A stretch of DNA of 43,350 nucleotides from Verrucomicrobiota bacterium (GTDB lineage: Bacteria; Verrucomicrobiota; Verrucomicrobiia; Verrucomicrobiales; DEV007): positions 1-43,350 of the forward strand of contig DAOUQC010000038.1 of the NCBI GenBank assembly GCA_030625775.1, in the 5' to 3' direction. Below are positions 2,973 to 13,191 of the stretch, piece after piece. The position numbers and the translations under genes were made by a program. Under the pieces are notes generated by a model that saw only the letters and a program-made list of their open reading frames with translations, searched no databases and was not told where the DNA came from. Within the stretch, counting starts at the first letter, position 1. Each line of letters opens with the position of its first letter.

Positions 2973-4412
2973 TTAGAAAGATAGTAGGCATTGCCAGATG
3001 TAGGTGTAGCCCAACTCCTCGATATTATTCCACTGGGTGCGAATGATTTTTTCATCCCCCAGGATTTTTGGCATCTCCTTTTTCTTTTCCTCCCATGGGA
3101 AACAGTTGCCGGGTTTGATCCGTGGATCCGGTCTTCCATACATTCCATATCCTTCTCCACCCGGGAGGTTTTTCGGATCAGGCCCCTGAATCGTGGATGC
3201 TGCCGGTGAAGAGGCGCCCGATGAATAGACTCCGTATTCCCTGGTGAAGTCGGTGAGCGCCTGCATGTTCTCGATACTGGTATCGTTCTGCATGATGGCA
3301 CTGGCATCCATGATGTATCCACCGTCCTGCGCCACATTGTCGATCACTTTTTTGGCGCTTTCACGCACCTCGTCCGGTGTTCCATAACTCAGGATCACGT
3401 TGGGGATGCCGCCACTGAGGCAGAAGCGGTCACCGAATACCTCGTGGGTCTTGAAGATATCCCCCTGGTCAACGTGATAGACGATGCATCCTTCCGGCAG
3501 CTCCCTGAACGTTTCCAGATGATACGCCCAGTCGCCTTCGGCATAAAAAAGCACCTGGTGGCCATTTGCCCACATCTCCTCGATCAGTGGTTTCAAGGTC
3601 GGCCAATAGTGCGAGCTGAATTGGTTGGGCGTGATGAAGGGGACACAGCCGCGATGCATCCAGAAACCGATGGGTACTTTCTTCTCGGGATCGGCGGTGC
3701 TCAGTGCTACGTGTAACAGATGCGGCATCAGAGCCTCGCAGGCTTTGAGAACTTTATCCGGCTGTTCGACCATGTCAATAGTTAGTCCTATATAGCCACG
3801 CAGTTTATCAGAGAGAATGTCAAAAGGTGCTTTAAAAATGCCGGCAATGGCTGAAACTGTGCCGCATTCTGACTGCAATTGGGCATTCTGTGTTCCAAAC
3901 GCACCAAAATAATCCATCATGGCCATGCCTCCTTTTACAAAGGAGAGGTTGTTGTGGTAGGTGCTGGGTTCGCCGGGGCGAATCACCTGGCTCGAAACAC
4001 GAGGGAGCCAGACATTGTAGAGATAGCCAGTGGGATCATCGATGAGCGCATCGTATTCGTCGGAGCGCATGAAGGGCTCATTTTCCGGGGGTTCGAGATA
4101 CTGGAAACCAACATCGGGTTCGGTCTGGATTCCGGGGACTCCGTAATACTTTGTGCCTATGGCTTCGGTCAGTCCGGTCCAGACATAGACCATGTTGGCG
4201 ACCACGGCGTCCCAATCGAAATCGTTGGCGCATTTGCGGACAGCGGCGAAGGCCTTCTCGTAATCATGGGTCACTTCCTGGCAACTGTAACCTGCGTACT
4301 TGGCCACAAATTCCGCGGTGAACGGTCGGATCGGAATTTTATCGGGCTTTTCGTTGCGCATTGCCGAGGTGTATCGGTTGAGCCTCTCGGTGTAGAGTTT
4401 TTCCTTGTCCAT
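2973..4412 (-). CDS. UROD/MtaA-superfamily protein lacking the zinc ligands (putative substrate-side methyltransferase)
   Basis: A 479-residue protein of the uroporphyrinogen decarboxylase superfamily (PF01208-like TIM barrel). The N-terminus (ERLNRYTSAMRNEKPDKIPI) and the late motifs GGIPNVILSYGTPDEV (334-349) and GGYIMDAS...SIENMQAL fit the family. MtaA/MtbA enzymes bind zinc with HxC plus a distant Cys. Here the HxCG position reads YAEGDW (290-295), and the later GC motif reads DAS (369-371), so all three ligands are missing. It is therefore neither a standard thiol-methylating MtbA nor an obvious haem-pathway UroD. It has an extra C-terminal tail of about 85 residues. The start at 4412 follows the amidohydrolase stop by 5 nt; an in-frame ATG at 4460 would overlap that gene. 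As last gene of the corrinoid operon it may act on the unknown methylated substrate (inference). Confidence 0.72.
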   Translation of the reverse strand: MDKEKLYTERLNRYTSAMRNEKPDKIPIRPFTAEFVAKYAGYSCQEVTHDYEKAFAAVRKCANDFDWDAVVANMVYVWTGLTEAIGTKYYGVPGIQTEPDVGFQYLEPPENEPFMRSDEYDALIDDPTGYLYNVWLPRVSSQVIRPGEPSTYHNNLSFVKGGMAMMDYFGAFGTQNAQLQSECGTVSAIAGIFKAPFDILSDKLRGYIGLTIDMVEQPDKVLKACEALMPHLLHVALSTADPEKKVPIGFWMHRGCVPFITPNQFSSHYWPTLKPLIEEMWANGHQVLFYAEGDWAYHLETFRELPEGCIVYHVDQGDIFKTHEVFGDRFCLSGGIPNVILSYGTPDEVRESAKKVIDNVAQDGGYIMDASAIMQNDTSIENMQALTDFTREYGVYSSGASSPAASTIQGPDPKNLPGGEGYGMYGRPDPRIKPGNCFPWEEKKKEMPKILGDEKIIRTQWNNIEELGYTYIWQCLLSF

Positions 4413-4417
4413 GGTTT

Positions 4418-5632
4418 TTATAGGTTGAGGGTGGGTGCTTCGGTCTGGAAAGGATGCCATGTGTGCCGGAAAATTCCCAGTGGGTGACGTATGTTTTCCA
4501 GATCTTCAAAAGGCGAGCCCTCCAGCAGGATAAGGTTGGCTTGGTTGCCAGCGACGACATCGGCCGAGGGGCAATCCCATAGCCGGCGGGGGAGGGATGT
4601 GGCCGATACCAGCACGTCGGTGACTGATCCACCGGCGGAGTGAAGGTGAAATAACTCATCGATCAGGGACTGTCCGTGAACCACACCATAACTGCCGGCA
4701 TCGGAACCGGCCACGACGGGCACACCCATTTCATAAGCCAGGGCGATGTGGATATCATGGTTCTCCAGAATGGTACGGAGCCGGTCACAAGTCTCAGGAT
4801 TCCAGCCAGCCAGTTCAGGCCTTTGCAGTTGGAGGTCCACCGGGGAATAGGTGGGCACCCAGGCAATTTGTTTGTCTGCCATGGTTTGCAGGATGTCTCT
4901 GGTCATGAAAAATCCGTGCTCGATCGAATCGATCCCGGCTTCTACAGCGATCAGGAGGCCGTCTTCGCCACTGCAATGGGCATAGGTCAGTAGTCCTAAG
5001 TCCTTTGCGGTATCGACTATCACCCGAGTTTCCTCCAGAGTGAACTGGTTGCCGCCCTTCATGGTTCCTTTTTCGAAATCGATGATTCCGGTGAGCAGGA
5101 CCTTCAACTGGCTCGCAGTGGGAGCGACCTCCCGGACGGTCTGGACGATGCTATCAATGTCGGTGACTTCCCGGCCCATGAAACTGCCGTAGCGACCGGC
5201 TTTGCGAATGGCAACACCAGGGCTGAGCAGATCGGCAACTGATTGCGGATGGTCATCGATTTCCTGCTTCAGGCGTGTGTTCACACCGTGGATGTCCCCG
5301 GCATCGCGAATCAGGGTGATTCCTGATTTGATATTTTGATCCATACTGGTGCGGGCCTGGTCCAGCATTTCCACGAAGGGAGATTTGAGGTGGGCCTTGC
5401 GCTTTTGAAAATTGAGTTCCCCGCCTTCCAGGAACAGATGACAGTGGCCCTCGACGAGACCGGGCATCACGAAAGGGGAGTGGATGACCTCCACAGACGG
5501 ATCATCGATATCCGGGCTATTCCTCGTCACTTCCTCGATCATCCCATCGCTCACCCGGATCCGATAGGGGCCTTCGCTATGGTGGGCGGCTCCGTCGAAG
5601 TAGGCATCGGTAGTGATCAGCTTGGCACCCAT
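4418..5632 (-). CDS. Metal-dependent amidohydrolase (imidazolonepropionase/prolidase-like)
   Basis: A 404-residue amidohydrolase-superfamily protein (PF01979 type). Visible metal-site elements are HCH at 63-65 after the strand PGLVEG, His219 (YAHCSGEDG), His239 (SIEHGFF) and Asp311 (AGSDAGS), with a candidate bridging Lys177 (LKVLL). The N-terminal beta-sandwich and the C-terminal NLILLEGSPFEDLENIR return strand are also present, so the protein looks complete. The start at 5632 lies 1 nt after the TGA of the preceding gene; an upstream ATG at 5686 would overlap it. These enzymes hydrolyse cyclic amides, imides, lactones or peptides, and the substrate here is unknown. Co-location with corrinoid and folate genes recalls the hutI-like gene of chloromethane-utilisation clusters, whose role is also unclear. 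It might process the demethylated product or a folate derivative (inference). Confidence 0.82.
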   Translation of the reverse strand: MGAKLITTDAYFDGAAHHSEGPYRIRVSDGMIEEVTRNSPDIDDPSVEVIHSPFVMPGLVEGHCHLFLEGGELNFQKRKAHLKSPFVEMLDQARTSMDQNIKSGITLIRDAGDIHGVNTRLKQEIDDHPQSVADLLSPGVAIRKAGRYGSFMGREVTDIDSIVQTVREVAPTASQLKVLLTGIIDFEKGTMKGGNQFTLEETRVIVDTAKDLGLLTYAHCSGEDGLLIAVEAGIDSIEHGFFMTRDILQTMADKQIAWVPTYSPVDLQLQRPELAGWNPETCDRLRTILENHDIHIALAYEMGVPVVAGSDAGSYGVVHGQSLIDELFHLHSAGGSVTDVLVSATSLPRRLWDCPSADVVAGNQANLILLEGSPFEDLENIRHPLGIFRHTWHPFQTEAPTLNL

Positions 5633-5633
5633 G

Positions 5634-6521
5634 TCAGTTGGTTTTGTAAAGCTCTTGCACCCGGAGGATGGATTTAAAGCCACCAAGTTCTAGGGCTTCC
5701 TTGAATCCGGTGTAAACGAAATTGTCCTCGTCTAGAACTTGGTAATTGCGCCCGGCTGTTCCCAGGATAGTATCCAGGCCGAGCGGCATGGCCATGGTCA
5801 AGAAAGAGGACTCGAGCTGGACTTTGAGAAGGCTGCCGTCGAGTGCCTGCTTGGGAAGCATGACTGAGAGATTGGACAGGCCGACAATGGTGTGGATGCC
5901 TTTGAGACTGGGGTCGGCACCGATCAGGCGTATCGAGTCGATTGCCTGGCGGGTTATGCTCTCGGTGTCTGCCGACAATGGCCCAAGGGCGACATCGACG
6001 AAAATGTCATCATTTTCCATGTCACCGCTGCGTTGCATCACCTGTTCGGTTAGCCGCTTCGCTGTGGTATGAACTTCTTCTGCGGTGGTATTGGCAATTT
6101 TTTCGCCATTCTCCATTCGCTCGGAGGCCATGAGCACAACTTTGCAAGGCTGGGATTCGATCAAGTCCAACATCTCCATGCGTAGTTCCGACACCGAGTT
6201 CATGATCGGTTTCCTACCCTTGGCCTTTCCCGGGTCGTAGTTCTCAAGGCAGATCTGTTGGACTTCCTTGTTGGGATAATCAAAGGATAGCGGTAGGTCA
6301 GTCGCCTCCTGAACTTTGTGGATCACATCGACCAGGAATTCCGGATCGTCTGAAGCCGCAGTGCCCACATTGATTGTCAGGTATTTTGCTCCTTTTTCTT
6401 CTTGCAAAACCGCGAGTTGCTGGATGCTGTCTAGATCCTTGGCGTCCAGCAGTGCTTTGGAGCTTTTGAACCCCGGGTTGATTCGTTCTCCGATAATGGT
6501 CAAGTTGTCGATAGAAGTCAT
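5634..6521 (-). CDS. Pterin-binding methyltransferase (MtrH/AcsE/MetH folate-module-like)
   Basis: A 295-residue single-domain protein of the pterin-binding TIM-barrel family (PF00809). Family features are IIGERINPG at 9-17, TINVGT early in the barrel, a central FVDVALGPLS strand, and GLSNLSVMLP late in the chain, which corresponds to the GxSN loop of methyltetrahydrofolate:corrinoid methyltransferases. It lacks the homocysteine and B12 domains of MetH, so it is the free-standing folate module. The expected reaction is methyl transfer between tetrahydrofolate and the Co(I)/methyl-Co(III) corrinoid protein encoded in the same operon; the direction cannot be told from sequence. It follows a 195-bp gap after the MetF-like gene and is tightly coupled to the amidohydrolase (1-nt gap). 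Dihydropteroate synthase is unlikely because of the GERIN/GLSN motifs and the context. Confidence 0.85.
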   Translation of the reverse strand: MTSIDNLTIIGERINPGFKSSKALLDAKDLDSIQQLAVLQEEKGAKYLTINVGTAASDDPEFLVDVIHKVQEATDLPLSFDYPNKEVQQICLENYDPGKAKGRKPIMNSVSELRMEMLDLIESQPCKVVLMASERMENGEKIANTTAEEVHTTAKRLTEQVMQRSGDMENDDIFVDVALGPLSADTESITRQAIDSIRLIGADPSLKGIHTIVGLSNLSVMLPKQALDGSLLKVQLESSFLTMAMPLGLDTILGTAGRNYQVLDEDNFVYTGFKEALELGGFKSILRVQELYKTN

Positions 6522-6716
6522 GGTGATGTAAAATAGGGGCGAACCCAGTTGCGGCGTCTAGGGAGCTTTCAATTAAAATTGGTATGGTTTGCGTATGGTG
6601 GACGGGGTGGCAGGAATGTATTTGGGAGGCCGATACCCGGAGAAATTATTGTGATTAACAATGTAATAGCGCTGCGGTAAGAAATTAGGACATTTATCAT
6701 GAGGGATATCTCACAA
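6522..6716. other. 195-bp gap inside the corrinoid operon
   Basis: This is the longest spacer in the minus-strand cluster and separates the MetV-MetF gene from the folate-module gene. It has no convincing reading frame. It carries a small perfect inverted repeat, CAATT-AA-AATTG at 6570-6581, and AT-rich patches near 6650-6670 that could hold an internal promoter for the last three genes. No cobalamin-riboswitch B12 box (GCCACTG-like) was seen on either strand. The regulatory role is a guess based on spacing. Confidence 0.25.
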
Positions 6717-7985
6717 TTATTCCAAGCCCTCGATGACATCGATCAAGGTGCTGTGGTCTGATCCGAATAGCATAAGATGAACCCCGGCAAGTCCCGGGAT
6801 TTGCCGAACCCGGGCGACCGTTTCACGGGCCAGGGCCACACCTTCCCGTTTCAGGTCGTCGGCTTGCTGCAAACGCCGTTGCACTTCGGCCGGGATTTTC
6901 ATCCCTGGAATGCGCGGCAGCATCCTCAGGGCGCCGGCTGAGATGATGACCGGAATTCCAGCGAGAATGAACAGGTCCCGGTCTATTCCCTCATCCCTGA
7001 CCAGACCCATGAAGTCTTCGAAACCGGGGATGTCCATGATCGCCTGTGTCTGGATGAAGTCGGCACCGGCAGCGGCTTTCTGTTTGAGCCGCCGGATGGG
7101 AATATTCGCGGGTTGGGTGTAGGGATTGATCGCTGCTCCCAGAAAGATCTTGGGAGCCTTGGGCAGAGGTTCCTGGAGGAAATGGATGACCCCTTTTTCG
7201 CGTAGGTATCGGGCTTCGTAGAGCATCAATGAGGAATCCATGTCGAAGACCTGTTTGATTTTCGGTATACTGGCGTAGGAATCCCCGGTCAGACACAGCA
7301 TGTTGTGTACGCCGTTCATTTCGTTCTGGATGAGTTCGGAAACGAATGAGGTCTTGGTGTGGTCGCGGCAAGTAGCCTGGGTGATTGGCTCCATCCCGAG
7401 CTTGGCGAGTTCCCCGGCTGCCACTGTCGAGGGAAGGGAAGGCTTGGCATTTAGATAAGCGGTGGCATTTACCGCGTCAAAATGGTCGCGAACGACTAGC
7501 GCTTCCGCCCGAAGGTGGGAAAGATCCGGACCCCGCGGTGAGCGAACCTCACAGGTTTTCACAAAACGTCCACTGCGCAGAGCCGCTTCGAATTTGGAAG
7601 CAGTTTGGGTTGGTATCTCAACCCGGTTGGTGCCGAGATCCAGATAGGGTATTGGCTCGCGGCCGGCTTTGTCCCTTCCGCTTAGCATGTTAAGGTAGGA
7701 CGATGTAAATGAGAGGCTTGGGTCTGGAGAGGGGATTAGGCTAGGAAGTGAGAACGAGCCTTTGCCCTTGCGACGGTGAATTCGCACCCAGATGCACTCG
7801 CTATCCGGGTAGACCTCGCACTTGCCTTCCAGAGTCCCGCCGCAGGGGCCGTTGCGCAAGCCTTTGGGGCAGCTCATCGGACAAATCAGTCCGGTCTGGG
7901 AAAGCACGCACTGTCCGCAGGCGCGGCAGTCGAACATCATTCCCTTGCAGAACGCTTCCGATCTGGCTATCAGTTTTGCAAACAT
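6717..7985 (-). CDS. MetV-MetF fusion: Fe-S-type methylenetetrahydrofolate reductase
   Basis: A 422-residue two-domain protein. Residues 1-70 form a Cys-rich module with C13, C20, C23, C26, C35, C39, C48, C56 and C64 and the motifs CRACGQC, CPMSCPKGLRNGPCGG and GKCEV. These match MetV, the zinc or Fe-S partner subunit of acetogen-type methylenetetrahydrofolate reductase (PF12225). A Ser/Pro-rich linker (about 76-95) leads to a MetF barrel (about 130-422, PF02219) with FVKTCEVRSPRGPD, LCLTGDS and GADFIQTQ, which places CEV and the flavin-binding region as expected. The reaction interconverts 5,10-methylene- and 5-methyl-tetrahydrofolate, here probably with a ferredoxin-like or flavin partner rather than NADH alone (inference from MetV). 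It sits 23 nt after the MtbA-like gene, linking the corrinoid methyl pool to folate redox. Confidence 0.85.
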   Translation of the reverse strand: MFAKLIARSEAFCKGMMFDCRACGQCVLSQTGLICPMSCPKGLRNGPCGGTLEGKCEVYPDSECIWVRIHRRKGKGSFSLPSLIPSPDPSLSFTSSYLNMLSGRDKAGREPIPYLDLGTNRVEIPTQTASKFEAALRSGRFVKTCEVRSPRGPDLSHLRAEALVVRDHFDAVNATAYLNAKPSLPSTVAAGELAKLGMEPITQATCRDHTKTSFVSELIQNEMNGVHNMLCLTGDSYASIPKIKQVFDMDSSLMLYEARYLREKGVIHFLQEPLPKAPKIFLGAAINPYTQPANIPIRRLKQKAAAGADFIQTQAIMDIPGFEDFMGLVRDEGIDRDLFILAGIPVIISAGALRMLPRIPGMKIPAEVQRRLQQADDLKREGVALARETVARVRQIPGLAGVHLMLFGSDHSTLIDVIEGLE

Positions 7986-8008
7986 TTTGTTAGTTTCCTA
8001 ACGGGCTT

Positions 8009-9037
8009 TTAAGAGTCGTCCAAATCCGGGCGGTGGCTTGCGGCATAATCATGCAGAGCCTGGATATTTTCCTCCGGAGTATCGTAAGGGATTTCACATC
8101 CGGCACCAACAATGTAGCGCTTCCCAGCCTGACGGTGGCATTCCGCAACAGTGGATGTGACCAATTCCGCGTTTCCGTTACGCATTACTCTAACCGGATC
8201 AATATTTCCCAACAGAACCTGGTCAGGGCCCATTTTTTTGCGTCCTTCTTCCAGGGGGGCGAGAAAGTCGAGATCGACAATATCACATTTCAGCCGAGCC
8301 ATGTCTCCGAGAATGGGACGCGTATTTCCACAGATATGAAGCCGCACCAGGGCGCCCATTTCATGAATACCATCGATGAGCTTTTTCTCAAAGGGCCACA
8401 CAAATTCCTCGTAAATCTGCGGGCCAACCAGGGAAGCTGCGGCATCTCCCAGCCCGATCGAGTCCGCTCCCGCGTCTATTTGGGCACGTGCAAAGCGGAG
8501 TTCCATCTCGATGATGAACTCGAAGAGGTCGCGGACAAAAGCGGGATCGTCATAAAAGTCCAGCATCAGCGTGTTAATACCACGGAGGTCGGCAGCTTCG
8601 GCACAGGGGCCTTCGATCCAACCTTCGACGAGTTTTTCCTTACCAACTTTCTCCACCATCAAGGCTACAGCATTGATACCGTTGTTCATCCTCCCGCCAC
8701 CCAGGGGGTCAGGAATTTTCAGGCTGGCCAAGTCTGTCTTGTCGGCAAGGCGGGCCTGATTTTCCACGATCGCCGCCGGTTGGTTGTCGAAATACTCAAT
8801 CACTGCACCACAGTCGGCGGCTTCACGTGCTGGATCGGACATAGTATTGACGTAGTCAAAATCGAATTTCTCCGCAGTAAAGATCTGTCCTTCTGCCATC
8901 ACCCGGTAGTCAGTTGCGTAATCGCGGTAGTTGGCGCCGATCTGGTCGGCGGCAAACATCATGGTTATAGGCATCAGGGGCAGCCGGTCAACCTCGCGAC
9001 CCTCCAGAAGGGCTAAAATACGCTCTCGTCCGTTCAT
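8009..9037 (-). CDS. MtbA/MtaA-like methylcobamide methyltransferase (zinc UROD family)
   Basis: A 342-residue UROD-superfamily protein close to the usual length of MtaA/MtbA (about 340). The zinc site is intact: His234-x-Cys236 in LHICGNT (233-239) and Cys314 in GAGCEIPYDTPEEN. It also has the family start GRERILALLEGREVDRLPLMP, the GLGDAA loop and GNIDPVRVM. In methanogens these enzymes move a methyl group from a methyl-corrinoid protein to the zinc-activated thiol of coenzyme M. Coenzyme M is not expected here, so the thiol acceptor, or the direction, is unknown. Its ATG overlaps the DUF1638 stop by 4 nt (ATGA), so the two are translationally coupled. Uroporphyrinogen decarboxylase is excluded by the HxC zinc motif and the context. 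Confidence 0.85.
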   Translation of the reverse strand: MNGRERILALLEGREVDRLPLMPITMMFAADQIGANYRDYATDYRVMAEGQIFTAEKFDFDYVNTMSDPAREAADCGAVIEYFDNQPAAIVENQARLADKTDLASLKIPDPLGGGRMNNGINAVALMVEKVGKEKLVEGWIEGPCAEAADLRGINTLMLDFYDDPAFVRDLFEFIIEMELRFARAQIDAGADSIGLGDAAASLVGPQIYEEFVWPFEKKLIDGIHEMGALVRLHICGNTRPILGDMARLKCDIVDLDFLAPLEEGRKKMGPDQVLLGNIDPVRVMRNGNAELVTSTVAECHRQAGKRYIVGAGCEIPYDTPEENIQALHDYAASHRPDLDDS

Positions 9038-9786
9038 TGGGATTCTCCTTCTGTTGAGGTGATGATGCCTGCATCACATTTTGGTTCAATTCGGGAACCT
9101 GGTGGTAAAACCAGGAATTCACTGTCATCCCAAATACCGTTGAGCATTCGCTGGATCATGGAAAGATCGCCCTTTACTTTTTCAAATTTCCAGCCCCGCT
9201 CGCTGGCTTTCTCGCGGGTGTGTTTTTCGAAACGGTCATCCGGCTCGATCCCCATTTCGATGTAGGTGAACTGGCCGTAATTATGGGTGAAATCGCATAG
9301 CTCCCGGTAGAGGAATTTGGCATTGTCCTCGCCGTATTTGTCCACCAGTTCATTGTAGCTTGAATTCATCCCGCTCGTCTGGGCAATTGAAAGCTGGCTC
9401 AACTCATCGCTACTACTTTCATTTTCAATCCAGCCGCTGCTTTTGAAATAGACGCCCGGGTGTTCGTTGAAATAGTCGAGGTAGCGTTCCTTGCTGCCGA
9501 GCAGCAAGGTAATGCAGTCGTGGGCGCGCGGCATGACCATCGGAATGTTACGCGTGTGGATTCCGGCCAGGCCGTTGCTGCAGAGGCCATACCCGAGCAG
9601 CAGCGCATCGTATTTGGAGTCGTCGCCCTGATCGACCACCTCCTGGATGCGATCCTGCATTTGGGAACAGGGGATTTCGTGGAGTCCTTTTGGTAAATAA
9701 TCAACATCCACCTCGTTGGGAGAGCGATCAATAGCAGTTTCCATTTCGCGTGAAAACACCTCACAACTAATTAACTTTAAGCGCAT
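9034..9786 (-). CDS. DUF1638 family protein of the corrinoid cluster
   Basis: A 250-residue protein starting at 9786, where AAGGA stands about 9 nt upstream of the ATG; a longer frame from 9879 would overlap the homocysteine methyltransferase gene. It shows hallmark motifs of DUF1638: LISCEVF (5-11), LLLGYGLCSNGLAGI (62-76) and MPRAHDCITLLLGS (85-98). Conserved-looking thiols and imidazoles (C8, C40, C69, H89, C91) could make a metal or thiolate site, but this is inference. There is no signal peptide and no membrane segment, so it is cytosolic. Members of this family are repeatedly seen beside corrinoid methyltransferase genes, and no biochemical role is established to my knowledge. The 4-nt overlap with the MtbA-like gene suggests a shared complex or reaction. 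Confidence 0.75.
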   Translation of the reverse strand: MRLKLISCEVFSREMETAIDRSPNEVDVDYLPKGLHEIPCSQMQDRIQEVVDQGDDSKYDALLLGYGLCSNGLAGIHTRNIPMVMPRAHDCITLLLGSKERYLDYFNEHPGVYFKSSGWIENESSSDELSQLSIAQTSGMNSSYNELVDKYGEDNAKFLYRELCDFTHNYGQFTYIEMGIEPDDRFEKHTREKASERGWKFEKVKGDLSMIQRMLNGIWDDSEFLVLPPGSRIEPKCDAGIITSTEGESQ

Positions 9787-9797
9787 TGAATTATTCC

Positions 9798-10688
9798 TTA
9801 TGTTGGAGGAATTAATTTTTCCAGTCTGGAAACCTCTTTTCTTAAGGCTCTGATGAATTCTGGATTGGTGCCACAACATCCACCGATAAAATTGGCTCCT
9901 GCAGCCATCAAATTACCGGCATAAGCGGCAAATTCATCAGGGCTAGTCCGGTAGACAAGCTCTCCATCGACCAACTCCGGCGTACCCGCATTCGCCTTGA
10001 TCCATATCGGACGATCAGTCGCCGAGTGGAGGCGTTCACAGATAGCGACAAATCCGGCGACTCCTTGTCCACAGTTGGCTCCGATCACATCCGCTCCCGC
10101 CTTGGTCAAAGCTTCGGCGGTTTCCTCCGGCGTCACCCCCATCATGGTGCGGTCGTTGTTTGCCCCGGAATCAAAAACCATGCAGGCAACAACCGGCAGC
10201 CCTGTCGCACGTGCGGCGCTGACAGCGATCCGCGCTTCGTCGAGCTCACTCATGGTCTCGACAACGATGGCATCGGCCTTGCTCAGCGCCTGTGCCTGTT
10301 CCTCAAACGCAGCTTGCAGATCCTCCTCCCTGGTATCGCCCATCATCAGTATTTTTCCACTGGCACCCATCGAGGCAAAGACCAGAGCCTGGTCACCGGC
10401 GGCACGGCGAGAAAGTTCCACACCTGCTTGATTGATCTCAACTGTATTTTTTGCTGCCCCGCTTTCCTCCAGTCGCAGTCGGTTTGCTCCGAAGGTGTTT
10501 GTCAGGATGATCTGGCTACCGGCATCGACGTATGCTTGTGCCACGGCAATGACCTGGTCGGGATTGGAGAGGTTCCAAGTGTCGGGGCTGTCTCCGACCG
10601 CCAGGCCCCGGGCCTGGAATTCAGTACCCCACGCTCCATCGGTTACAACTGGCCCGTCAGCGATCAGTTTCTCTATCGATAAAGGCAT
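9798..10688 (-). CDS. Homocysteine S-methyltransferase (MetH homocysteine-module-like)
   Basis: A 296-residue stand-alone homocysteine S-methyltransferase (PF02574). The N-terminus has VTDGAWGTEFQARG and ILTNTFGANR. Zinc ligands are Cys206 (GANCGQG) and Cys271-Cys272 (GGCCGTNPEFI), as in MetH and betaine-homocysteine methyltransferase. The reaction is methyl transfer to zinc-bound homocysteine, giving methionine. The donor is most simply the methylated corrinoid protein encoded just upstream (63-nt gap), because folate and B12 modules are present as separate genes in the same operon. A direct donor such as betaine or S-methylmethionine cannot be excluded. The protein is complete and has no fused B12 domain. 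Confidence 0.87.
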   Translation of the reverse strand: MPLSIEKLIADGPVVTDGAWGTEFQARGLAVGDSPDTWNLSNPDQVIAVAQAYVDAGSQIILTNTFGANRLRLEESGAAKNTVEINQAGVELSRRAAGDQALVFASMGASGKILMMGDTREEDLQAAFEEQAQALSKADAIVVETMSELDEARIAVSAARATGLPVVACMVFDSGANNDRTMMGVTPEETAEALTKAGADVIGANCGQGVAGFVAICERLHSATDRPIWIKANAGTPELVDGELVYRTSPDEFAAYAGNLMAAGANFIGGCCGTNPEFIRALRKEVSRLEKLIPPT

Positions 10689-10751
10689 TCTTTCTAGGGT
10701 GAATTAATTTCATCAGGTCACAAGATCTGTTCCAACACAGTTTTTTTTCTA

Positions 10752-11387
10752 TCAAGCTCCCACTGCTTTCCGGGCGACTGCGACCGCACCCACCGCACTG
10801 TCGCTGTATCCGTCCGCCCCGATCTCATCGGCAAAACGTTGCGTAACCGGTGCACCTCCTACCAGAATCGTTACCTTGTCTCTTACTCCGGCTGCCTCAA
10901 TGGCTTCGATAGAGGTTTTCATTGCAGGCATTGTCGTGGTAAGCAGGGCAGACAGGACAACGATCTGCACATCCTTCTCCTTGATTGTTTCGACGATTTT
11001 TTCCGGCTCCACGTTGACACCCATATCGATGACTTCAAATCCGCCCCCCTCCAGAACCGCAGCGACAAGGTTCTTTCCGATATCGTGCAGATCACCTTTG
11101 ACGGTGGCGACTATGACACGCCCCAGCAGTTCGACACCTGACTCGAGCAGGCGGGGTTGGATCAACTCCATGGCACCTTTCATTGCACGGGCCGATAGTA
11201 GCAGCTCGGGAACAAAGCATTCACTCGCTTCAAAGCGTCGCCCTATTTCATCCATCGCAGGAGTGAGGTGTTCAGAAACCAGACTCAGGGGATCGGTTTC
11301 TCCGCTGAGAGCTTCTTCGGTGATTGAGCGAGCAGTCACAGCATCACCAGTTATTACCGCTTCATAGAGCTCTTTCAAATCCTTCAT
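10752..11387 (-). CDS. Corrinoid (methyl-B12) protein, MttC/MtbC/MtaC-like
   Basis: A 211-residue protein, the standard length for methyltransferase corrinoid proteins. Residues 1-85 form the helical cap (B12-binding-2 domain). Residues 88-211 form the Rossmann B12 domain with the DxHxxG motif GDLHDIGKN (Asp99, His101 as lower cobalt ligand, Gly104), SAL at 146-148 and GG at 177-178. The start at 11387 gives the normal family start MKDLKELYEAV; a longer in-frame ATG at 11675 would run into the divergent gene. It is the first gene of the minus-strand operon and the shared methyl carrier for the encoded methyltransferases. Co(II) forms produced by oxidation would be rescued by the RACo-like protein encoded divergently. 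Confidence 0.92.
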   Translation of the reverse strand: MKDLKELYEAVITGDAVTARSITEEALSGETDPLSLVSEHLTPAMDEIGRRFEASECFVPELLLSARAMKGAMELIQPRLLESGVELLGRVIVATVKGDLHDIGKNLVAAVLEGGGFEVIDMGVNVEPEKIVETIKEKDVQIVVLSALLTTTMPAMKTSIEAIEAAGVRDKVTILVGGAPVTQRFADEIGADGYSDSAVGAVAVARKAVGA

Positions 11388-11556
11388 AGCAAGAATTATT
11401 GGGGTTAGATTTTTCTCTTTGGTGAACTTGTCAGGGTTTTGCATGGATGTCAATGAGAGCTGAGGTAGATCGAAGGTAGATTTATTTTTACAGTTGGTGG
11501 AAACGAGATAAGACTGGCAGTGCGGCAAGGCGCACTTTAAAAAACCGGAACAGACG
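11388..11556. promoter_or_regulatory. Divergent intergenic region driving corrinoid operon and activator gene
   Basis: 169 bp separate the corrinoid protein start (minus) from the RACo-like gene start (plus), so promoters in both directions are expected here. On the minus strand a TTGACA-like -35 hexamer is present (TGTCAA on plus at 11448-11453), but a good -10 partner is not obvious. A short imperfect inverted repeat, TGCG-GCAAGG-CGCA, lies near 11519-11532. No B12 riboswitch motif was recognised. The region as a whole is a reliable regulatory candidate; the individual elements are weak. Confidence 0.4.
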
Positions 11557-13191
11557 ATGGCGGTCAATTTTACTCTCGATTCACTTAGTGTCGAAGCACC
11601 TGCGGGAGCCAGGCTGTTTGACTTGGCTGAGCAACTGGGGATAAATATTCCCACTTCCTGCCGCAAGCAGGGCAAATGCCGTGAATGCCTCGTTCAGGTG
11701 ACCGAGGGCATGGAACATCTGTCTGAGCGCACGCCCGAGGAGGAATACATCCAACCTTCCTTCCGGCTTGCCTGTCGCTGCCAGGTAACAGCGGATGACG
11801 GAGATGTTTCTTGTCACACTCTGCGCCGCAGCCGGATGAGAGTGGAAACAGAGGGGAAAAGCATCACCGACACCTCGCGGAAAGATATTGCTCTTGATCC
11901 GGCGGTTGTTCGTGTAAGGGGCAACTGTATCCTGCTCGATGGCCGTGAGATTGCACGTTCCCATGAGCCGATCCACGGACTTGTTGTCGATATTGGAACC
12001 ACAACCTGTGTGGTTCGTCTGCTAAACTTGGAAAACGGGCAGATCGAAGCTGCCGCTTCATTTGAAAATCCGCAGCGATTCGGCGGATCTGATGTTATGG
12101 CGAGGATTCAATATGACAGCGAACGAAAAGACCAGTTGCTGCAGCGGACCCTGCTTGCCTATCTCAGCCACACCATTGAAGATTTCTCTGTAGATCCAAA
12201 TACGATTTATGAAACTGTAATTACCGGTAACTCTACAATGCGCGATCTTTTTTTTGGATTCGATCTTAGCACCATTGGCCAGGAACCTTTTCAATCAATC
12301 ACAGAAATTGAATACCTTGGTGGTTGTCGAACGACCACAGCTGTCGAGGTGAAGGCGGGAAAATTGGCGATTCCAATGAATCCCGAAGGGAGAATCTACG
12401 GCATGCCTTTGATCAGTGGACACGTGGGAGCTGATGCTGCCGCCTGCATGCTCGCGGTAGGAATGTGCACGGAGGAACGGACAATTGCAATCATGGATGT
12501 CGGGACTAATACTGAAGTTGTGGTGGGAAATAAGGACAAAGCCATCGCCGCTTCCTGCCCCGGCGGCCCCGCGTTTGAGGGTGGTGCGGTAAGCTGTGGA
12601 ATGCCAGGGCTGGAGGGGGCGATTGAGCGAGTTGCCATTGATGGCGAAGGCCGGATGGAGATCGGGGTGATCGGTGGTGGAGAGCCTGAAGGTATTTGTG
12701 GGTCCGGCTTGATCGATCTGCTCGGTGAACTGGTACGCACAAAACAGTTAAATGTGAAAGGTCGTTTTGAAGGGGTTGATAATCCGCTGGTCATTGACCG
12801 GGAGCACCACATTTTATTCACAGAAAGTGACGTCAATGAACTTGCACTTGCCAAGGGGGCAAATGTTGCAGGCCTCAGCATTCTTTTTAATCACATGGGT
12901 CTTGCGGCTGATGATATCGATGCTCTCTACCTTGCCGGTGCATTCGGCAGGCATCTCGACACCCAGGCTGCAGCACGGATTGGTTTCCTTCCCAGTCTGG
13001 ATGCATCCCGTTATCATCAGGTCGGAAATGCCGCTATCGAAGGTGCTACAATGGCTCTGCTTTCCCTGAATGCGAGGAAATCGCTTGAGGGACTCATTCG
13101 CAAAACTACCCATCTCCGGCTGGAAGCAGATCCCTGTTTTTTCGATATTTTTGTTGATGGCTGTCTATTTGGACCCTCTGAAAGATCCTGA
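11557..13191 (+). CDS. RACo/RamA-like reductive activator of corrinoid protein (ASKHA ATPase with 2Fe-2S domain)
   Basis: A 544-residue protein. Residues 1-90 form a ferredoxin-like [2Fe-2S] domain with C35-x5-C41-x2-C44 (SCRKQGKCREC) and a fourth ligand at C73 or C75 (LACRC). A linker (about 90-140) leads to the ASKHA-fold region (DUF4445 type) with phosphate-binding motifs VVDIGTTTC, IMDVGTNTEVVVG, CGSGLIDLLGEL and YLAGAFGRHLD. RACo-type proteins use ATP to drive one-electron reduction of inactive Co(II) corrinoid to Co(I). It is divergent from the corrinoid protein gene, its evident partner. This replaces the AdoMet-dependent reactivation domain of classical MetH. A hairpin overlapping its stop codon may end transcription. 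Confidence 0.9.
   Translation: MAVNFTLDSLSVEAPAGARLFDLAEQLGINIPTSCRKQGKCRECLVQVTEGMEHLSERTPEEEYIQPSFRLACRCQVTADDGDVSCHTLRRSRMRVETEGKSITDTSRKDIALDPAVVRVRGNCILLDGREIARSHEPIHGLVVDIGTTTCVVRLLNLENGQIEAAASFENPQRFGGSDVMARIQYDSERKDQLLQRTLLAYLSHTIEDFSVDPNTIYETVITGNSTMRDLFFGFDLSTIGQEPFQSITEIEYLGGCRTTTAVEVKAGKLAIPMNPEGRIYGMPLISGHVGADAAACMLAVGMCTEERTIAIMDVGTNTEVVVGNKDKAIAASCPGGPAFEGGAVSCGMPGLEGAIERVAIDGEGRMEIGVIGGGEPEGICGSGLIDLLGELVRTKQLNVKGRFEGVDNPLVIDREHHILFTESDVNELALAKGANVAGLSILFNHMGLAADDIDALYLAGAFGRHLDTQAAARIGFLPSLDASRYHQVGNAAIEGATMALLSLNARKSLEGLIRKTTHLRLEADPCFFDIFVDGCLFGPSERS

Follow-up and report, generated by a model that had tools for sequence, protein, structure and literature searches.

In Acetobacterium dehalogenans, the Cdm system is made up of a methyltransferase I of the UROD fold (CdmB), a corrinoid protein (CdmC), a folate methyltransferase (CdmA) and an activating enzyme. 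CdmB is metal-free, has an aromatic hydrophobic cavity, and counts MtvB, OdmB, VdmB and MtoB as its closest characterised relatives (PMC13222342). Ruegeria pomeroyi uses MtgBCDE for glycine betaine demethylation and methionine synthesis, with MtgCDE found together with MetF2, RamA and DUF1638 (PMC12478193). Phaeobacter inhibens has a three-part methionine synthase of separate modules with a RamA-like reactivator and DUF1638, for which mutant data are available (PMC5764234). Finally, the type 1 mlp gene clusters of Kountz and Balskus lack an in-cluster folate methyltransferase and have been described from obligate anaerobes (PMC10418091).

We analysed a stretch of 43,350 nucleotides (the window) from a Verrucomicrobiota bacterium (DEV007; GCA_030625775.1, contig DAOUQC010000038.1), which holds a corrinoid methyl-transfer cluster at 2973–13191. 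Gene calls and Pfam/NCBIfam matches bore out the nine genes that a sequence-only reading had placed there. Eight lie on the minus strand in one tight operon, and the reactivator gene is divergent on the plus strand:

2973..4412, minus strand: UROD2, a URO-D-fold protein of 479 aa, probable substrate:corrinoid methyltransferase (PF01208)
4418..5632, minus strand: amidohydrolase (PF01979)
5634..6521, minus strand: Pterin_bind protein, probable corrinoid protein:tetrahydrofolate methyltransferase (PF00809)
6717..7985, minus strand: MetV-MetF fusion (MetVF), methylene-tetrahydrofolate reductase (PF12225 at residues 9–73, PF02219 at residues 132–411)
8009..9037, minus strand: UROD1, MtaA/CmuA-like URO-D methyltransferase with the thiol-zinc motif HxC...C (TIGR01463 at 163.7 bits, below the cut-off of 235.4)
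9034..9786, minus strand: DUF1638 accessory protein (PF07796, 127 bits)
9798..10688, minus strand: homocysteine S-methyltransferase module (HMT; PF02574, 211 bits)
10752..11387, minus strand: corrinoid protein (CP) of 211 aa, B12 cap plus B12-binding domain (PF02607, PF02310; DLHDIG motif)
11557..13191, plus strand: RACo-type ATP-dependent corrinoid reactivator with an N-terminal 2Fe-2S domain (Fer2, PF17651, PF14574)

Every Pfam assignment exceeds its curated cut-off (URO-D twice, Amidohydro_1, Pterin_bind, DUF5981 (MetV) with MTHFR, DUF1638, S-methyl_trans, B12-binding_2 with B12-binding, and Fer2 with the RACo middle and C-terminal domains). Starts were refined to 9786 for DUF1638, 5632 for the amidohydrolase and 4412 for UROD2, and the likely start of the CP is 11387, not 11675. 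Within the window, no riboswitch matched Rfam, and promoter and terminator scans gave results at chance level.

The cluster shares with Cdm a URO-D-fold methyltransferase, a CP, a folate methyltransferase and an ATP-driven activator (PMC13222342), but it adds MetVF, HMT, DUF1638, UROD1 and the amidohydrolase, and the two systems come from different phyla. As in Mtg, one corrinoid protein serves folate and homocysteine modules, and counterparts of MetF2, RamA and DUF1638 are present (PMC12478193). However, MtgB, of the MttB family, is missing from the whole genome, its position is filled by the URO-D protein UROD2, and a separate MetH exists. The Phaeobacter arrangement is likewise matched in its separate homocysteine, pterin and B12 modules, RamA-like protein and DUF1638 (PMC5764234), although here a full MetH is present and two UROD proteins, MetVF and the amidohydrolase are added. 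Unlike type 1 mlp clusters (PMC10418091), this one encodes a folate methyltransferase, and its UROD2 is nearer to CdmB than to MtbA-like proteins. In relatives L115 and L123, the MtaB of bacterial methanol systems sits with a UROD1-like protein, a CP, DUF1638 and RACo, whereas this genome has no MtaB. The absence of MttB and MtaB from the cluster, noted from the sequence, extends to the whole genome (PF06253 and PF12176), and we thus rejected both glycine betaine via MttB and methanol via MtaB as donor routes. In our best model, the cluster is a new variant of the Cdm/Mtg-type systems.

The two URO-D proteins differ in kind. Both had been read as MtbA-like, which holds for UROD1, with its MtaA/MtbA zinc motif (VRLHICGN and GAGCEIP) and its match to 4ay7 (E 4e-23). 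UROD2 belongs to a different, CdmB-like family; it lacks the HxC...C thiol-zinc site of MtaA/MtbA, with which its residues YAE and A374 align. Neither is a true HemE: UROD1 fails the HemE model TIGR01464 (78 vs 303 bits), UROD2 does not match it, and the likely HemE is a separate URO-D protein at C8 (365 bits).

By sequence, the chloromethane:corrinoid methyltransferase CdmB is the only close solved relative of UROD2 (E 3e-36, profile E 2e-46), and the predicted structure of UROD2 (pLDDT 87.5) has the URO-D fold with Z about 26. The UROD2 family is tightly conserved, at about 55–70% identity, in about eight largely uncultured bacterial phyla, among them Planctomycetota, Verrucomicrobiota, Armatimonadota, Hydrogenedentota, Omnitrophota and Bacteroidota; one scan returned 472 relatives. 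Our literature search found no publications on this family, which is recognised only as URO-D-fold protein, and a scan for plasmid-borne copies gave one weak match. An alignment showed H255, R256, C258, E294 and H300 to be invariant and H315 to be present in 39 of 40 sequences. At the aligned positions, CdmB has mostly non-polar residues or Q, a comparison of sequence positions rather than of cavities. The invariant H, C and E speak against a CdmB-like hydrophobic pocket in UROD2, and these polar residues are possibly metal-binding. The substrate methyltransferase whose absence the sequence-only reading had noted is likely to be UROD2. The cluster was said there to contain no known enzyme of this type, which is correct only in name, as UROD2 is related to a characterised one.

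Gene neighbourhoods tie UROD2 to the corrinoid protein. A CP gene directly adjoins UROD2 in 11 of 80 sampled relatives, some of them related lineages, and several of these also carry DUF1638 and RACo. The other 69 copies have no adjoining CP, so UROD2 might have another role. In a CP tree, the window CP falls in a clade (support 99/92) that holds only UROD2-adjacent CPs, even though the two genes sit at opposite ends of the operon here; UROD2 copies are also paired with a second CP lineage. The partner that stays constant in the window CP clade is UROD2, not UROD1. The CP fails the MtgC models (179 bits vs a cut-off of 370, and 163 vs 310). TIGR02370 was set aside as non-discriminating across the phylum, as MetH matches it too. 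The RACo is 52–57% identical to those of amidohydrolase-type clusters, compared to 25–34% for the other RACo proteins sampled. DUF1638 adjoins CPs and RACo in many relatives, and it occurs in 9 of 12 genomes with a close UROD2 vs 89 of 376 others (Fisher p 3e-4, uncorrected for shared ancestry).

The acceptor modules are recognisable by family. HMT matches the homocysteine domain of Thermotoga MetH (E 5e-48) and has the GANCGQG and GGCCGT motifs. The Pterin_bind protein scores 119.7 bits against NCBIfam PRK07535, below the cut-off of 259. Its nearest solved chains are 4o0q, 4o1e and 4o1f, deposited as DHPS; 4o1e and 4o1f are folate complexes that served as the CdmA template (PMC13222342). MetVF, the folate methyltransferase and the amidohydrolase form a recurring cassette, to which other genomes add CP, URO-D and RACo, and in the phylum sample a Pterin_bind gene is found near each of the six other homologues of the amidohydrolase (E<=1e-60). 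The nearest solved chains to the amidohydrolase are amide hydrolases and Xaa-Pro dipeptidases. An essential role as methenyl-folate cyclohydrolase was rejected: FolD is present in the genome, so nothing forces this role on the amidohydrolase.

We consider it probable that the cluster works as an accessory module for corrinoid-based demethylation, in which UROD2 methylates the CP and the CP feeds folate or homocysteine. We infer the individual catalytic steps, the direction of flow and the substrate as follows. UROD2 would bind a methylated donor, whose methyl group it would transfer to the CP cobalt in the Co(I) state. The Pterin_bind protein would then pass it to tetrahydrofolate, and MetVF would oxidise the resulting methyl-tetrahydrofolate to methylene-tetrahydrofolate. 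HMT would provide a second outlet, from the CP to homocysteine and thereby methionine. RACo, aided by DUF1638, would reduce oxidised cobalt with ATP. UROD1 has a thiol-zinc site and may either act as a second methyltransferase, with a methylthio compound as donor, or transfer methyl groups to a thiol. This reading retains several elements of the earlier proposal: an ATP-reactivated corrinoid hub, methyl transfer to homocysteine or tetrahydrofolate, oxidation by MetVF and an unnamed donor.

A normal methionine synthase is encoded elsewhere (MetH with its Met_synt_B12 activation domain at C20 and its N-terminus on C14), which makes the cluster an add-on pathway. The genome also has a second, housekeeping-like MetF (G000:C123). 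HMT is redundant with the full MetH, and this counts against the accessory module. A normal MetH elsewhere, combined with lack of conservation in relatives, had been named as evidence against the hub. The MetH was found; lack of conservation was not seen, with UROD2–CP pairs and the amidohydrolase cassette recurring in relatives. The most complete relative, L202, has a near-complete gene set.

As for its substrate, UROD2 may use zinc to O-demethylate methoxylated aromatics or O-methyl sugars, a reading that we advance tentatively. The nearest characterised relatives of CdmB, namely MtvB, OdmB, VdmB and MtoB, point this way. O-demethylase methyltransferases I such as VdmB and OdmB carry the zinc motif E-x14-E-x20-H. 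The E294-x20-H315 pair of UROD2 resembles this motif, but its first glutamate lies at x12/x13 instead of x14. Sugar isomerase and Gfo/Idh/MocA genes occur near several CP–UROD2 pairs; however, these phyla are rich in sugar genes, and the nearness may therefore be background. As substrate clues, the Gfo/Idh/MocA (24 of 92 loci) and DUF1080-like (11 of 92 loci) neighbours of UROD2 were set aside, as we estimate both to be near the phyla background.

It is unlikely that the cluster serves mainly as a second methionine synthase, split as in Phaeobacter and reserved for special conditions, with the UROD genes as passengers. The homocysteine, folate and B12 modules, the RamA-like protein and DUF1638 do match the five Phaeobacter methionine genes, and the mutant data contradict the earlier claim that methionine synthesis does not require DUF1638 (PMC5764234). 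Relative L199 also keeps the CP-HMT-DUF1638 block. Yet those five genes include neither UROD nor MetVF, and in L202 UROD2–CP is kept while HMT was not found. We rejected the split synthase as the main identity of the locus, given that the genome encodes a full MetH, activation domain included, and another MetF.

Slightly less likely still, UROD1 is the substrate methyltransferase, CmuA/MtsA-like and acting on a methylthio or halide donor, with UROD2 in a side role. Its HxC...C motif and MtaA/CmuA similarity fit this, but a 61% identical homologue sits with MtaB, CP, DUF1638 and RACo in L115, which suggests a shared, not substrate-specific, role, and the CP clade is partnered by UROD2. UROD1 could nonetheless be the real substrate enzyme, which also counts against the accessory module. 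Least probable is that UROD2 is a CdmB-like haloalkane dehalogenase and the cluster degrades chloromethane: CdmB is its one solved relative and the four-part logic is common to Cdm (PMC13222342), but the differing pocket residues led us to reject plain homology as grounds for this substrate.

In conclusion, linking UROD2 to a corrinoid protein makes it a testable demethylase and suggests B12-dependent methyl removal in widespread environmental bacteria. The cluster is a natural parts set of donor enzyme, carrier, two acceptor enzymes, reductase and reactivator, useful for finding the roles of DUF1638 and the amidohydrolase. UROD2 may, as a tentative proposal, represent a class of metal-dependent corrinoid demethylases acting on a methylated compound, e.g., O-methyl sugars or methoxylated material from plants or algae, for which a B12 route of demethylation would be new in these bacteria.

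All nine genes that the sequence-only reading had described were recovered by gene and domain searches of the window, which is the entire 43,350-base contig C135 of a 4.88 Mb draft genome. After re-reading of the gene starts, they lie as follows:

11387-10752, minus strand, corrinoid protein
10688-9798, minus strand, homocysteine module (HMT)
9786-9034, minus strand, DUF1638
9037-8009, minus strand, UROD1
7985-6717, minus strand, MetVF
6521-5634, minus strand, Pterin_bind
5632-4418, minus strand, amidohydrolase
4412-2973, minus strand, UROD2
11557-13191, RACo, divergent from the minus-strand operon

Within this operon, intergenic distances are mostly below 65 bases or the genes overlap; a 195-base gap comes after MetVF.

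The cluster had been taken for a methionine synthase in pieces. We found a normal MetH elsewhere in the genome: a 1187-residue open frame at the end of contig C20 carries the AdoMet-binding activation domain (380 bits) with the other MetH domains, and the N-terminal part matches at the end of contig C14, so that one gene is divided over two contigs. The genome also holds a second MetF (307 bits, versus 83 for that of the window), FolD and a 365-bit URO-D protein that is likely HemE; neither MttB nor MtaB was found in it, in agreement with the sequence-only reading. With MetH and a second MetF elsewhere, the cluster is additional to ordinary methionine synthesis. DUF1638 had been denied a place in methionine synthesis, but in Phaeobacter inhibens mutant fitness data contradict this, showing that DUF1638 and a RamA-like protein are required alongside a three-part methionine synthase (PMC5764234).

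The cluster had also been thought to lack a known substrate methyltransferase, and UROD2 is a likely candidate for this role. A scan gave 472 relatives, and UROD2 is a separate family. The best 80 (63-70% identity over the best segment, nearly all full length) come from Planctomycetota, Verrucomicrobiota, KSB1, Acidobacteria, Armatimonadota, Hydrogenedentota, Omnitrophota and Bacteroidota. A corrinoid protein adjoins UROD2 in 11 of these 80, several also with DUF1638, RACo or UROD1; assuming a handful of such corrinoid proteins per genome, we estimate that far fewer than one such pairing would arise by chance. In one relative's locus, L202, one side has amidohydrolase, Pterin_bind and MetVF (60-64% identical to the window's), and the other has UROD2, corrinoid protein, another URO-D, UROD1 (69%) and RACo; the locus also carries DUF1638, and the homocysteine module was not found within the fetched stretch. 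In another, L199, the genes for corrinoid protein, homocysteine module and DUF1638 are ordered as in the window and RACo comes next, with UROD2 alongside. When 27 corrinoid proteins were placed in a tree, that of the window grouped in a clade of nine (support 99/92) whose members are all UROD2-linked, although its gene lies at the opposite operon end from UROD2; a separate lineage (L156, L185) is likewise paired with UROD2. Of the 12 genomes that have a close UROD2, 9 carry DUF1638, compared to 89 of 376 others (p 3e-4, uncorrected for kinship). Together, these observations link UROD2 with the corrinoid protein, for which it is probably the substrate methyltransferase.

Several UROD2 loci carry further genes. 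In genome G304, which has no DUF1638 match, a shortened corrinoid protein of 140 residues directly follows UROD2 (L047:8625-9047), and the two look like a decaying pair. A PAS-like regulator gene, possibly a sensor of UROD2's substrate, lies nearby in five loci (L047, L052, L054, L128, L178). A stand-alone protein after UROD2 at L156:11411-12133 resembles 1j6r, a MetH activation domain protein (E 1e-6), as does, judged by its near-identical start, that at L185:11411-12133. A longer form (27% identical) lies near RACo in amidohydrolase-type clusters (L216:14363-15586, L217:7124-7711 and L218:4396-5628). In loci that lack DUF1638, such a protein may serve as a further reactivation partner.

UROD1 is similar to MtaA, MtbA and CmuA and carries their HxC...C zinc motif. 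In a profile alignment, UROD2 has Y-A-E at the H-I-C of UROD1 and alanine for the second cysteine, replacements identical in 40 of 40 sequences. Its sole clear solved relative by sequence (E 3e-36, profile 2e-46) is CdmB, a recently described chloromethane:corrinoid methyltransferase with an aromatic, metal-free cavity (PMC13222342). A confident model built from 40 homologues (pLDDT 87.5, pTM 0.89) adopts the URO-D fold (Z about 26, rmsd 3.1-3.5 across about 320 residues) with an additional C-terminal part beyond about residue 401. Numbered from the start of window:2976-4418, H255, R256, C258, E294 and H300 are invariant in the 40-sequence alignment and H315 is present in 39, where CdmB has mostly non-polar residues or Q. 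The zinc motif of O-demethylase methyltransferases I includes E-x20-H, which the spacing of E294 and H315 reproduces, with the motif's first glutamate displaced by one or two residues. From these residues, the UROD2 site appears polar and perhaps metal-bearing, which would speak against a haloalkane donor and for a methoxy or similar compound.

On the folate side, the amidohydrolase is no stray gene, since all six other homologues (E<=1e-60, 388 genomes of the phylum) lie near a Pterin_bind gene read in the same direction, with gaps of 0-1370 bases between aligned parts. MetVF is present in four of the six loci, and corrinoid protein, RACo and a URO-D gene in four. The RACo proteins of those latter four are 52-57% identical to the window's, compared to 25-34% for the remaining sampled ones, including that of L202. 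The cluster thus appears to be a mosaic in which RACo, MetVF, Pterin_bind and the amidohydrolase make up a folate-oxidation module, and the corrinoid protein, UROD2, UROD1 and DUF1638 a donor module, alongside the homocysteine module. Its URO-D partner varies from one amidohydrolase-type cluster to another, as expected if it sets the substrate. MetV comes first in the window's MetVF and MTHFR first in L218, and the closest solved chains to the amidohydrolase are amide hydrolases and Xaa-Pro dipeptidases. Two electron-transfer flavoprotein genes immediately precede Pterin_bind and amidohydrolase in G187 (L220:1666-5424), a hint of a partner for the cassette. An 819-residue protein fusing MTHFR, MetV and Pterin_bind (L101:15582-18041) lies near corrinoid protein, RACo and DUF1638.

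In the pathway we propose, UROD2 would transfer the donor's methyl group to the Co(I) protein, giving CH3-Co(III), and the Pterin_bind protein, whose relatives catalyse this reaction, would pass it to tetrahydrofolate. MetVF would then oxidise methyl- to methylene-tetrahydrofolate, as proposed for MetF2 of Ruegeria (PMC12478193); HMT would provide an outlet to homocysteine, and RACo with DUF1638 would serve reactivation. The chloromethane (Cdm) and Ruegeria glycine betaine (Mtg) systems follow the same logic. MtaB, the methanol:corrinoid methyltransferase, occurs (>530 bits) at L115:6946-8361 and L123:5600-6979, within the class to which the window's genome belongs. Its neighbours there are UROD1-like, corrinoid protein, DUF1638 and RACo genes, probably a methanol system in this phylum. 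In the literature searched, the amidohydrolase cassette and a set that unites a CdmB-like enzyme with HMT, MetVF and DUF1638 are new, as is the UROD2 family in its likely role of corrinoid demethylase in these phyla.
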